Origin: a bacterium
GTDB taxonomy: Bacteria > Hydrothermota > DG-26 > JAUXAN01
Assembly: GCA_030619885.1 (NCBI GenBank)
Contig: JAUXAN010000025.1
Coordinates: 1-36,887, forward strand
Direction of reading: 5' to 3'
Length of the DNA: 36,887 nucleotides
In this document: positions 4,322 to 33,489 of the stretch, in pieces
Layout of the letters: each line of letters starts with the position of its first letter
How positions within the stretch are numbered: position 1 is the first letter of the stretch
Translations under genes and position numbers: made by a program
The notes under the pieces: model-generated
The model's database searches: none
What the model saw: the letters and a program-made list of their open reading frames with translations, nothing else
Told to the model about the DNA's origin: nothing

Positions 4322-4738
4322 TTATACAAATTTAGTAAGTAGATTAACAAAAAATAGGCTTTTTACTTTCTTGAACAATCTATTATCAGCAGTTATAAAT
4401 TCAAAATCTAAATTCTGAGCAAGGGATAGATAAATAGCATCATCGTAGGTTGTTATGTCATACTCGTGCGCTAAAGAACTTGCATCCTTGATTAAATCGA
4501 TGGTTGGAACTATAATATTAATCCCAAGTTTTATAAAATTATCAAGGACATTATGAACATCTTGAACAGTGCTACCTTCCATATATCTAATTGCATTTGC
4601 CAATTCCAAAAAGACAAGGTCAGGAACAGCTATATTATATTTGCCATTCTTATAACCATCTCGGATTTTAATTGCTTTATCTGTGCCTTTCTCTGTTCGA
4701 TACCATTTAACAATTACGGATGCATCTAAAACTTTCAT
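4322..4738 (-). CDS. VapC-type PIN-domain ribonuclease toxin
   Basis: This is a 138-residue PIN domain of ordinary length. The acidic metal-binding residues are present: D5 in KVLDASVIVKW, E45 in VFLELANAI, D100 in TYDDAIYLSLA and D118 in FITADNRL. PIN toxins of toxin-antitoxin pairs cleave RNA, often tRNA or rRNA, using Mg2+. Its ATG overlaps the TGA of the upstream small gene (ATGA), the usual toxin-antitoxin coupling. It appears intact. The RNA target cannot be read from the sequence. Confidence 0.88.
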   Translation of the reverse strand: MKVLDASVIVKWYRTEKGTDKAIKIRDGYKNGKYNIAVPDLVFLELANAIRYMEGSTVQDVHNVLDNFIKLGINIIVPTIDLIKDASSLAHEYDITTYDDAIYLSLAQNLDFEFITADNRLFKKVKSLFFVNLLTKFV

Positions 4739-20072: not shown

Positions 20073-20104
20073 AAGTTTAAAAGTTTGTGCCTGTCCCCAA
20101 CACC
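20073..20104. repeat. GTTTGTGCCTGTCCCC-type dispersed repeat, copy 1
   Basis: The sequence AAAAGTTTGTGCCTGTCCCC followed by AACACC recurs at 23183-23209 with one substitution (GACACC). Similar phrases are known next to REP-associated transposases in other bacteria; none is in this window. Confidence 0.55.
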
Positions 20105-20131: not shown

Positions 20132-21667
20132 GTGTTAGGATTGTCAAAGAATCCAAAGTCTCTTAAGAATATAATTTGGCGGCATAAAGAGAGCTTAGAC
20201 ACAATGCGTAAGGCCGTTCGACAGCATGACTGGCGGAAGATGCTACCGATTATTCATCAAAGAATTCAACAAGTAGAAGGAAATGTGCAACTCGAACGGC
20301 AGACCCCTATACATATGTTGATGCACATTGCCAAGTGGTCTGCTCAATACTACAATAAATTTTACGATAAGGATAATTTTCAAGGATGGAATACACTGGC
20401 AAAAATTTGCAATAAATATCATGATGTATTTAGTGGGGAGGACCCTTTGTTATTTTATTTGCGTCAAGAAGGGTTCGATGTAGTAAATTTTCTTATAATG
20501 TTAGGTAGGCAACAATTTGTCTATCAAAAAGAAATACTATCAACAGAGATAGGTCGTACGATATATCTCTTTACTGAAATGCCTTGCAAGTTTAACATAA
20601 AAACTTCATTTGAAACAGTATCTAACTTAACGCCTGAAGAATTCATAAGTTTATGTCTTATCACGTGGTCTCATGCCAAAGAAAATCCTGTAGACTTTGG
20701 AGTAGTCCCCAAAGGCTCTGCATCTTGGTTATCACTGGAAAAATTTAAAGCTTTCGTTAAACTTATGACCTTTAATGAACAAATATTTAGGGAACATTGC
20801 AAAAAAAACGATCCTAAAAATTCTATGTATGCCCTATATTGGAAATCTCCGTTCGAAGAAAAACCTTTTATACAATATGACAGCAGCATATATATAGCAC
20901 CTTTTCCTGGATTCATATTGAAAAGATGCGCCTACGGTATTTATGACATTTTAAAGTCTCACTACCATAACGATTTTACGGAACTCTTTGGTGGAACCTT
21001 TGAGAATTATGTTAGGGAACTTATTGAGATGATAAAAGGACAATTTATAAATATTTTCAAGGGAGAACCTCTCGTTAAATCACAAAATGCAAAAGCACCG
21101 GATTTTGTTCTAGTAACTCTTAAAGAGATTATACTATTAGAAGTTAAATCTACCGAAATGGATCGTGCAGTAGCAAAAGATGAATTACTTAAACAGAATC
21201 TAAGAGACAATGTCATAAAAGGCATAAATCAATGTATGTCATTTACCAAGATTCTAGGAGATGGATCTATATCACAAATCAAAGACGCAAAAAGTAAGAG
21301 AATAATTTCGTTAATAGTTAGCTTCAAACACATTTTGTTTGCAAACACGCCATTTTATTGGGATCGTGTATTTAAACCAAGTTTAGAAAAGGAAGGCATT
21401 ACGGAGTTCATCGATAATTTTGAATATCAAATACTTGATATTACCGAGTTGGAGTGCTTATTTGGAATAACACTGCATTCGTCTATCAATATTTCTGAAA
21501 TACTTGCTGCCAAGTTAGATTCAGAATATGAGAAGGTCAATGACTTTGAAACATTTCTCCCTCGATATATAGAAGAAAAAAACTTGGTAAAAAAATATCA
21601 CATACCAAAGATGGTAGACAAATTTGAAAAGTTTGTAGAAGATGCCAAAGCCAATATGGCACACTGA
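20132..21667 (+). CDS. Orphan protein with a PD-(D/E)XK nuclease-like core
   Basis: This 511-residue protein matches no family I recognise by name. The N-terminal ~280 residues are mostly helical (WRHKESLDTMRKAVRQHDW at the start). Near 291 comes FENYVRELIEM, and then KAPDFVLVTLKEIILLEVKS with D324, E337 and K339 spaced as in PD-(D/E)XK nucleases; E291 or E296 could be the alpha-helix glutamate of that fold. Predicted role: a DNA- or RNA-cutting enzyme, perhaps defensive. This is inference from the motif and from the accessory setting between repeats. The start is GTG at 20132 with no clear Shine-Dalgarno; a later start is possible. Confidence 0.7.
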   Translation: MLGLSKNPKSLKNIIWRHKESLDTMRKAVRQHDWRKMLPIIHQRIQQVEGNVQLERQTPIHMLMHIAKWSAQYYNKFYDKDNFQGWNTLAKICNKYHDVFSGEDPLLFYLRQEGFDVVNFLIMLGRQQFVYQKEILSTEIGRTIYLFTEMPCKFNIKTSFETVSNLTPEEFISLCLITWSHAKENPVDFGVVPKGSASWLSLEKFKAFVKLMTFNEQIFREHCKKNDPKNSMYALYWKSPFEEKPFIQYDSSIYIAPFPGFILKRCAYGIYDILKSHYHNDFTELFGGTFENYVRELIEMIKGQFINIFKGEPLVKSQNAKAPDFVLVTLKEIILLEVKSTEMDRAVAKDELLKQNLRDNVIKGINQCMSFTKILGDGSISQIKDAKSKRIISLIVSFKHILFANTPFYWDRVFKPSLEKEGITEFIDNFEYQILDITELECLFGITLHSSINISEILAAKLDSEYEKVNDFETFLPRYIEEKNLVKKYHIPKMVDKFEKFVEDAKANMAH

Positions 21668-21710: not shown

Positions 21711-21797
21711 ATGGAATACAAAGTTCTATTCTTGTTTATCGTTTCTATTTTTCTTCTAAACGGTTGTGCAGGAATTCCGGTAGTAAATGAGAGTTAA
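21711..21797 (+). CDS. Tiny lipoprotein or truncated lipoprotein stub
   Basis: A 28-codon frame reads MEYKVLFLFIVSIFLLNGCA, then GIPVVNES and a stop. It holds a full lipoprotein signal peptide with lipobox LNGC (Cys19) but only nine mature residues after the cysteine. AGAGGA lies 6 nt before the ATG, a good Shine-Dalgarno. The frame is also open upstream to an ATG at 21672. It may be a decayed lipoprotein gene whose body was lost, or a genuine micro-lipoprotein of the lysis/entericidin kind. No continuation was found in other frames. Confidence 0.45.
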   Translation: MEYKVLFLFIVSIFLLNGCAGIPVVNES

Positions 21798-21900
21798 AGG
21801 GGGCAGGCGTTCGTTTGTTCGTTTTTCACTTCAGTCATCTGAGTCAAAAATTGTGGTCAAGTCTTGAAATTTATTTTATACTACCTTTTTCTTAGTCATC

Positions 21901-21996: not shown

Positions 21997-22371
21997 ATGG
22001 AAGCACATGAATTTTTGCTGAAGCATTCACAAAGATGGTCTCTTAAATATCCAGGAAAGCACATAGCTATGGTAAATAATGAAATAGTTGCAATAGGAGA
22101 TTCTGAATTGAAAGTATTTAAAAAGGCGAAAGAAAAGTATCCTAAAAAAGAAGTGTCAATAGCATACATACCCACGGATGAGGAAATGGTGACTCTTTTG
22201 ATACTAACAAGATTAGAATATACTTTGACGAGTATGAAAAAGTCATCGAGTTTTACTCCAAAAGTTAACTATCAAAAGGCGGTCTCAATAGAAAATTTTG
22301 TGATGGGTATCTTTGAAACTGTTTTGGAGAGTATAATATCCAAATTTACACATATTTGGATAATCTATTAA
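21997..22371 (+). CDS. DUF5678-domain protein with unusual C-terminal tail
   Basis: Of 124 residues, the first ~68 match DUF5678: SLKYPGKHIAMVNNEIVAIG, then ELKVFKKAKEKYPKKEVSIA and YIPTDEE. Members of this family usually end about there; their function is unknown. The remaining ~55 residues (ILTRLEYTLTSMKKSSSF to HIWIIY) look unrelated to the family and may be frame read-through after an ancestral frameshift. A GGGAGGAG Shine-Dalgarno lies 5 nt before the ATG. The domain call is fairly sure, the tail is not. Confidence 0.72.
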   Translation: MEAHEFLLKHSQRWSLKYPGKHIAMVNNEIVAIGDSELKVFKKAKEKYPKKEVSIAYIPTDEEMVTLLILTRLEYTLTSMKKSSSFTPKVNYQKAVSIENFVMGIFETVLESIISKFTHIWIIY

Positions 22372-22961: not shown

Positions 22962-23171
22962 ATGAAAAAATCTCTTCACCCCTTTCTCTATATCTTGCCT
23001 GCCTTCGCAATAGTGGCTCTGTTTCGTATAATCCCTATTTTCTATGCGATTAGAACGAGTTCCTACGACTGGGGGATAGCGGGTCCAAAGAAATTCTTGT
23101 ATTTTAACAACTACATTACCCTGTTTAAAGACCCTACATTCTGGCAATCTCAGTTTAAAAGTTTGGTTTAA
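22962..23171 (+). pseudogene. Truncated sugar ABC-transporter permease (MalF/UgpA type) N-terminus
   Basis: The 69-codon frame MKKSLHPFLYILPAFAIVAL, then FRIIPIFYAIRTSSYDWGI, and PKKFLYFNNYITLFKDPTFW has the typical N-terminus of MalF/UgpA-like permeases (first transmembrane helix, then the NYxxLFKDPxFW segment). It stops after 69 residues, whereas such permeases have about 290. The coding sequence breaks at about 23153, where three tandem GTTTAAAAGTTTG units and a dispersed repeat begin. No binding protein, second permease or ATPase is near. A relic of a lost transporter operon is the simplest reading. Confidence 0.7.
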
Positions 23172-23209
23172 AAGTTTGAGTTTAAAAGTTTGTGCCTGTC
23201 CCCGACACC
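23153..23209. repeat. Three tandem 13-mers running into a GTGCCTGTCCCC dispersed repeat
   Basis: GTTTAAAAGTTTG occurs at 23153-23165, 23166-23178 and 23180-23192, the last continuing into TGTGCCTGTCCCCGACACC. The latter is the second copy of the repeat at 20073-20104. Confidence 0.7.
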
Positions 23210-31488: not shown

Positions 31489-31983
31489 ATGTACTACGAA
31501 GATATATTCTATGAATTTAACAAAGAGAGAATTCGTTATCTTGTCTGCGGAGGTATTGCTCTGAACCTTCATGGAATACCAAGAATGACGGCTGATTTAG
31601 ATTTGATGGTGGATATGGAAGAGAAAAATTTACTCAAGTTACTCAAAATTCTAAAGGGTTTGGGTTATAAACCAAAAGCTCCAGTAAAAATAAATGATTT
31701 TCTCGATATCAACAGAAGAAAATTATGGAAAAAGAAAAAGAATATGGTGATGTTCACTTTATACAATATAAAAAAGCCGTATCAAGAACTGGATATGTTT
31801 ACAGAAAACCCACTCAATTTTGACGAGGCATATAAGAGAAGAAAAGTCATCAGGGCTGCATCTTTGGAGATTCCAACTGTATGTATAGAAGACCTCATTG
31901 AAATGAAAAAACGAGGGAGAAGAAAACAGGATAGAACTGATGTTGAATCTTTGAGAAAACTAAAAAAGATATTGAAGGGATGA
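31489..31983 (+). CDS. Nucleotidyltransferase-fold protein (DUF6036/AbiEii-like)
   Basis: This 164-residue protein has the minimal nucleotidyltransferase motif: LVCGGIALNLHGIPRMTADL, with G21-G22 and the metal-binding D36 and D38 (ADLDLMVD). A third acidic site may be in QELDMFTEN. The C-terminus is basic. Such proteins occur in toxin-antitoxin and abortive-infection systems (AbiEii, MNT) and transfer NMP to RNA or protein targets. It starts 6 bp after rnfA without a clear Shine-Dalgarno and overlaps the next small gene by 4 bp. A two-gene module riding behind the rnf operon is the likely unit. The target is unknown. Confidence 0.8.
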   Translation: MYYEDIFYEFNKERIRYLVCGGIALNLHGIPRMTADLDLMVDMEEKNLLKLLKILKGLGYKPKAPVKINDFLDINRRKLWKKKKNMVMFTLYNIKKPYQELDMFTENPLNFDEAYKRRKVIRAASLEIPTVCIEDLIEMKKRGRRKQDRTDVESLRKLKKILKG

Positions 31984-32178: not shown

Positions 32179-32832
32179 ATGACTGCTAATGTCATCACAC
32201 TGTCGAGAATAGGACTGGTTTTTGTTGCCATCCTGCTCTTTGGGGCTGGTTTTTACGGACAGTTCCTCGCCTTCCTTCTGACCATCCTCATTATTTACAT
32301 GGACGCTCTGGACGGATACGTGGCCAGAAAACTCCGCATCGCCTCTGATTTCGGAGCGCTCTTAGATATTACCGGGGACCGCATTGTGGAGAACGTGTAC
32401 TGGATCTATTTTGCAGTCGTTGGGATGATCTCCTTCTGGGTACCCATCATCGTGATTGCCCGTGGCTTTTTGACGGACTCACTACGCAGCATTGCCTTTG
32501 CTGATGGAAAAACCGCCTTCGGTGAGCGGACGATGATGCGGTCCGGGTTCACTCGTTTTTTGGTTAGTTCCCGCTTCAGCCGCGGCGTCTACGGTGTGAG
32601 TAAAGCCATCATCTTCTGCTATCTGGGTGGTTTGATCGCCCTGAGAGGGGCAATGGCCCGGTTCTCTTTCATTCTCCCTTCAGACGTGCTGTTTAGTCTC
32701 GATCTCATCGGGCAGGTTATCGTCTACGTGGTGTTGGCTATGTGCCTGATCAGAGGAGTGCCGGTATTGTGGGATGGCCGCTTGTACCTGCTCGAAAAAC
32801 GCTATCCCAAGTTCATCCGCAAAGAGACATAG
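32179..32832 (+). CDS. CDP-alcohol phosphatidyltransferase family protein
   Basis: This 217-residue multi-helix membrane enzyme has the full family motif DGYVARKLRIASDFGALLD, then ITGD (D-G-x2-A-R-x8-G-x3-D-x3-D), which binds the CDP-lipid and metal. It would join a CDP-activated lipid to an alcohol; with the HAD phosphatase downstream, phosphatidylglycerol synthesis (PgsA-like) is the likeliest pathway. Base composition is near half G+C in a sampled 60-bp stretch, against about 40% upstream, and it has many CTG, GCC and CGC codons: a sign of transfer. AAAGGAGGG before the ATG is a strong Shine-Dalgarno. Confidence 0.88.
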   Translation: MTANVITLSRIGLVFVAILLFGAGFYGQFLAFLLTILIIYMDALDGYVARKLRIASDFGALLDITGDRIVENVYWIYFAVVGMISFWVPIIVIARGFLTDSLRSIAFADGKTAFGERTMMRSGFTRFLVSSRFSRGVYGVSKAIIFCYLGGLIALRGAMARFSFILPSDVLFSLDLIGQVIVYVVLAMCLIRGVPVLWDGRLYLLEKRYPKFIRKET

Positions 32833-32838
32833 GACTCT

Positions 32839-33489
32839 ATGAACAAAGCCATTGCTGTTTTTGACATCGACGGGACGGTACTGAGAGACAGTTTAGCCGA
32901 GAGGATCTTTGTCCATTATCTGTTGGCTAAAGGAGAATTGAACATGTTCAACGGAGCCCATTTTGTGAAACACTTCCTGGTGACATTACCTCGTAATTCG
33001 GTAATGGCCAGCAAAGGGAATAAGTTCTATCTAAAGGGGAAGAGCATCCACCGTATCGAGAAGTTGGCTAAGGAGTGCTTTCGGAAGGAGATTGTTTCTA
33101 AGATTTCGGACATTGCCTGCCGGAAGATCGAGGAGCATAGAGCCTGTGGTTTGGAAATTGTCCTCTTGTCTGGAACCCTGGACGTGCTACTTAGATGTTT
33201 TCAGGAATATCTCGAAGCCGACCATACCCACGGCTCAACTTTAAAGGTCTTGGGCGGGCGATATACCGGGGATATTTGTGGAATCTACCCCTACGGCAGG
33301 ACGAAAGCTGAGATTGTACGAACCTATTATGGTCGTAATCCTTACGATCTTTCTGCTTCGTATGCTTACGCCAATCATATCTCCGATTTCGAATTTCTCG
33401 GACTCTTCGGTCATTCCGCTCTTGCCAATCCCACTCCCCGATTGCTTGCGAAGGCGAAAAGGAAGGGCATCGGTGCCGTTTACTTCTGA
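32839..33489 (+). CDS. HAD-IB family phosphatase
   Basis: This 216-residue protein has motif I DIDGT (AVFDIDGTVLRDS), motif II in IVLLSGTLDVLL, a lysine in GRTKAEIV, and motif IV ANHISDFEFLGLFGHSALAN. The form is that of the SerB-like IB subfamily. It begins 6 bp after the CDP-alcohol phosphatidyltransferase and shares its higher G+C, so the two moved together. Dephosphorylation of the phosphatidylglycerophosphate-type product is plausible but not shown; other phosphomonoesters are possible. Confidence 0.85.
   Translation: MNKAIAVFDIDGTVLRDSLAERIFVHYLLAKGELNMFNGAHFVKHFLVTLPRNSVMASKGNKFYLKGKSIHRIEKLAKECFRKEIVSKISDIACRKIEEHRACGLEIVLLSGTLDVLLRCFQEYLEADHTHGSTLKVLGGRYTGDICGIYPYGRTKAEIVRTYYGRNPYDLSASYAYANHISDFEFLGLFGHSALANPTPRLLAKAKRKGIGAVYF

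Follow-up and report, generated by a model that had tools for sequence, protein, structure and literature searches.

GapS1 is a bacterial defence nuclease that acts against phages as a single protein, and prophages and other mobile elements are known to carry it. The family, also written GAPS1, was reportedly named by Mahata et al. in 2024 (in Nat Microbiol 9:3268, doi 10.1038/s41564-024-01840-5, as cited in PMC12774648). According to a meeting report, the GAPS1 of K. pneumoniae guards against many phages (PMC12908700), and the Phold paper (PMC12774648) independently gave the Klebsiella prophage gene NC_049448 the name GAPS1-like on structural grounds. Among the papers covered by a literature search, none dealt with the mechanism of GapS1.

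The gene considered here occupies positions 20132-21667 of the forward strand of the window (by which we mean the whole 36,887-nucleotide stretch of DNA that was analysed). It begins with GTG and encodes 511 amino acids with no internal stops, the frame described in an earlier note on this DNA; it is intact and is present as a single copy in its own genome of 2.46 Mb. The earlier note, made from the bare sequence, took the product for an orphan and a candidate new defence or repair nuclease. Its structural reading was a good one and the kind of protein was right, but the protein is neither orphan nor new: the NCBIfam model NF047931 (antiphage_GapS1) matches it nearly full length, making it a distant member of a family that already has a name, given in 2024, and a profile. 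The match (E 4e-40, 138 bits) runs collinearly from residue 26 to 459 against positions 2-436 of the 455 in the model. Since the curated cut-off for the subfamily is 320 bits and the score of 138 lies far under it, the protein is homologous to GapS1 over its full length yet falls outside the subfamily as curated. Judged by its sequence, then, the gene is an intact, distant cousin of GapS1, outlying in a known defence family, and its membership in a broad GapS1-like family is sound, given the full-length homology and the conserved columns held in common.

BLASTP against one of the cut-off-passing GapS1 proteins, from a Klebsiella prophage, gave E 3e-17 with 24% identity over 369 columns, and PHROG 14259, whose function is not annotated, matches it with E 4.7e-14. 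Pfam gave no match up to E 1, the PADLOC 2023 library gave no significant full-length match, its one hit being HEC-02B (E 0.001) to a 60-residue part of the core, and sequence searches of the PDB returned nothing significant.

Relatives found by tblastn lie on nine plasmids (of Nostoc, Kovacikia, Geminocystis, Streptomyces, Pseudomonas, Pantoea and Stutzerimonas) and in 16 Klebsiella phage records. Three of ten relatives pass the NF047931 cut-off, two Klebsiella prophage proteins and that of Pantoea (393, 429 and 493 bits); the Stutzerimonas protein comes near it with 289 bits, and the relatives from cyanobacteria, Streptomyces, Pseudomonas and a second genome of the same phylum (G074) score 51-128 bits. 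The Klebsiella gene also has relatives in E. coli, which RefSeq annotates as gapS1. Scans of genome and viral contigs with back-translated patterns, made from the window protein with or without the G074 homologue, yielded no relative, short patterns of this sort being ill-suited to a protein so diverged.

The genes around these relatives bear on function. P2-like prophages of E. coli and Klebsiella carry the gene immediately after their integrase; the Stutzerimonas gene comes after a pair of integrase genes and a single small gene. The homologue in G074 is found between HsdR and a SIR2-like protein, at a locus that also encodes HsdM, HsdS and a DUF4411 protein, as well as a regulator identified as ImmA/IrrE-like by eye and from its PADLOC matches. 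This defence island (L014:3154-15332) runs on one strand and holds a complete type I restriction system, in which the DUF4411 and ImmA/IrrE-like pair is embedded, together with the GapS1-like and SIR2-like genes and an HNH-like gene. On the Geminocystis plasmid (L011:4545-8930), the GapS1-like gene is without its N-terminal part and a large ORF upstream resembles a transposase by eye, so that this gene looks as if it had been broken by a transposon.

In the phylum, 147 genomes were searched and the family turned up in two of them, that of the window and G074. The two proteins are 26% identical by BLASTP (E 4e-44) and are sisters in the tree (support 98/94), just outside a clade (100/99) made up of the GapS1 proteins that pass the cut-off; deeper placement is unsure because several branches are long. 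The position outside that clade, together with a score (138 bits) far below the cut-off, means that function may have shifted. Perhaps, in a poorly known bacterial phylum, the window protein and the G074 homologue founded a defence subfamily of their own; its nuclease would be that of GapS1, but a diverged N-terminal half would sense some other signal from the phage, and the protein would act alone or beside type I restriction systems. We offer this tentatively and think it unlikely.

A PD-(D/E)XK nuclease in the C-terminal half is well supported as a prediction. The core would extend over residues 279-436 (20966-21439, + strand) and comprise a helix bearing E291, the strands that hold D324 and E337-V-K339, another helix in which Q367 lies and two more strands. 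D324, E337-V-K339 and the preceding PDF were all present where the earlier note had placed them, with APDF around D324. Its glutamate helix at 291-296 was also there, although the conserved acid proves to be E291, within G287-x3-E291. In an alignment of 12 diverse relatives (15-25% identity), the only invariant columns are R142, P245, G287, D324, K339 and Q367, half of which belong to the proposed active site. Every one of the 12 has E or D at residue 337, E291 is kept in at least 90% of them (it is Q in the G074 homologue), and Q128, P240, F282, E291 and E441 are nearly invariant. The signature of the fold, an aspartate and a (D/E)-x-K in adjacent strands, is accordingly conserved among homologues, and the variable D-E-K residues that the earlier note said would speak against a nuclease were looked for in the 12 relatives and did not appear. 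Positions E291, D324, E337, K339 and Q367 also align with the Klebsiella and Pantoea proteins that pass the GapS1 cut-off, which have D at position 337 in place of the E of the window protein.

The fold itself is favored by profile-profile alignment. A profile of 17 family members was compared by hhalign with those of NERD and YraN, each accompanied by 150 column-shuffled targets as controls. The score against NERD was 32.2 (E 0.0011; best of 150 shuffles, 20.7) and against YraN 21.7 (best of 150 shuffles, 20.9). In both cases E291, D324, E337 and K339 fall on the catalytic residues, none of 150 shuffles being as good, and Q367 is paired with a glutamine in NERD. The weak matches that family members have in Pfam also point chiefly to PD-(D/E)XK families (NERD, Hjc, TPD, DUF234 and DUF4143, of which we take the last three to be such families).

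Structure prediction, the other check that had been proposed, goes part of the way. An AlphaFold model built from eight sequences (the window protein and seven remote viral GapS1 rows) shows the order alpha-beta-beta-beta-alpha-beta in residues 279-436, but confidence is low, with a mean pLDDT of 47, a pTM of 0.41 and core blocks mostly at 50-69; a fold from the single sequence (pLDDT 34) was useless. The best Foldseek matches in the PDB include PD-(D/E)XK enzymes, among them nicking and restriction nucleases (Nt.BspD6I, Mus81, the small subunit of R.BspD6I and EcoO109I), but no match is significant (E at least 0.014), and with a model of pLDDT 47 they serve as weak support.

The N-terminal half (residues 1-278; 20132-20965, +) had been described as long and helical, and it is nearly all helical in the low-confidence model. 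It carries a family motif, QQ-x2-YQ followed by R142-x4-F, in which Q128 and R142 are conserved across the 12 relatives. That this half is conserved as well means that the family shares more than a nuclease domain, and we presume it to be a sensing or regulatory part. In the model, a helical extension (residues 437-511; 21440-21664, +) follows the core and contains the nearly invariant E441.

What might such a nuclease cut? A PD-(D/E)XK core alone does not discriminate DNA from RNA substrates, so the protein could sense phage in the manner of GapS1 and yet cleave RNA, for example tRNA, arresting the infected cell and leaving its DNA undestroyed. However, the profiles and folds that come closest, those of NERD, YraN, Hjc and of restriction and nicking enzymes, belong to DNA nucleases or nuclease-like proteins, and Pfam found no RNA-binding domain in the window protein. 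We regard RNA cleavage as unlikely.

The same fold serves DNA repair and recombination, where the protein might act as a Holliday-junction resolvase or a structure-specific nuclease. A weak match of the core to PHROG 843 (E 0.012), a Pfam Hjc match in one relative (E 0.017) and alignment in the right register to PDB 2eo0 (E 1.2) lean in this direction. The matches to Holliday resolvases, however, are insignificant and confined to the core common to all PD-(D/E)XK families; the window protein, five times as long as the 93-position Hjc model, is itself without a match to Hjc (PF01870) at Pfam E values up to 1, and no Hjc match turned up in its genome. Over its full length the protein matches GapS1 instead, and core repair genes are rarely so patchy as 2 of 147 genomes. 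We therefore reject identity as a Holliday junction resolvase or repair nuclease as highly improbable. Of the two functions between which the earlier note had hesitated, defence is upheld by the GapS1 homology, the conservation of D-E/D-K and the contexts of the relatives, and for repair no positive evidence was found.

The surroundings of the gene differ from the earlier description of them. It is not without core neighbours, as mnmE, at the end of a conserved rnpA-yidC-jag-mnmE block, lies only 204 bases ahead of it. The block recurs in a relative of the same class, where the genes after mnmE are altogether different, and comparison with that relative revealed no empty site. On the 3' side come a DUF5678 protein, a small ORF, fragments and a GAF protein. 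The DUF5678 protein (21997-22371, 124 aa, E 1.6e-14) shares the same AT-rich stretch, 3.1 kb in length, which is flanked by direct repeats of 31 bases (AGTTTAAAAGTTTGTGCCTGTCCCC[AG]ACACC) at 20074-20104, just 5' of the GapS1-like gene, and at 23179-23209 (both +, 97% identical). The repeat is rare, with five copies of its 25-base core in the genome at up to three mismatches, and near 23151 its first half is repeated three times. Two truncated frames, at 22962-23171 and 21712-21798, resemble by eye the starts of a sugar ABC transporter permease and of a lipoprotein, respectively, and look like signs of decay. The description of the region as repeat-rich and decayed is borne out to this extent, by one repeat and some short truncated frames. 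Neither another defence gene nor an integrase was recognised next to the gene within the window.

In composition, the gene stands apart: it is AT-rich, its GC3 is 0.307 (0.381 +/- 0.031 for window genes of at least 300 aa), and its codon use is the most distant among those genes. The deviant GC3 and codon use, taken with the patchy distribution, suggest horizontal acquisition. One might take the gene instead for what decay has left of a defence gene that no longer works, for no other gap in the stretch examined is as AT-rich or as full of repeats and fragments as the one in which it sits, but with 511 stop-free codons and all catalytic and family residues retained we reject this pseudogene reading and give it scarcely any credence.

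Elsewhere in the window, a PIN-domain protein, possibly a toxin, is encoded at 4322-4738 on the minus strand (E 3.2e-14, GC 31%). Directly behind electron-transport (rnf-like) genes lies a nucleotidyltransferase akin to DUF6036 and AbiEii (31489-31983; E 8e-8 and 1e-4; GC 33%), which may belong to a toxin-antitoxin or defence system. Two adjacent genes at 32179-33489, by eye CDP-alcohol phosphotransferase-like and HAD-like, have GC contents of 52% and 47% and GC3 values of 0.65 and 0.55 (long genes of the window average 0.38) and were probably acquired together.

We consider it likely that the gene encodes a horizontally acquired, divergent GapS1-like anti-phage system in which a single protein is both sensor and nuclease. 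According to this proposal, the gene was acquired horizontally and settled where the rnpA-yidC-jag-mnmE block ends. The C-terminal half would be a metal-dependent PD-(D/E)XK nuclease employing E291, D324, E337, K339 and Q367, which the helical N-terminal half would keep inactive until it encounters some product or nucleic acid of a phage. The activated enzyme would then cut nucleic acid, most likely DNA, and so halt the infection, whether or not the cell survives. The defence role is supported by the family and by the context of the relatives; sensing by the N-terminal half, a DNA target and protection from phage in the host organism are what we infer. The comparison carries the family of a recently described one-protein anti-phage system out to distant relatives, namely those of another phylum, of cyanobacteria and of Streptomyces, and it shows that such members escape both Pfam and the PADLOC 2023 library. 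The residues fixed over this whole range (R142, P245, G287, D324, K339 and Q367) would be the first targets for mutation.

How does the protein compare with those already described? With NERD and YraN proteins it shares aligned catalytic residues, but the core is all they have in common, and the window protein matches no Pfam model. Its tree sister, the G074 protein P0009, differs in having its gene inside a type I restriction island and Q in place of E291. The GapS1 proteins of P2-like prophages in Klebsiella and E. coli (e.g., NC_049448) are homologous, and those of Klebsiella pass the cut-off, but their genes adjoin a prophage integrase and the window gene does not. From GapS1 as defined by NF047931, the window protein is set apart by an identity of about 20%, by 138 bits against 320 and by its place outside the GapS1 clade, and neither GMT genes nor a prophage was recognised beside its gene. 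It is nonetheless like GapS1 in its full-length collinear homology, its similar length, its organization as a single-gene unit, its nuclease residues and its conserved N-terminal Q/R motif.
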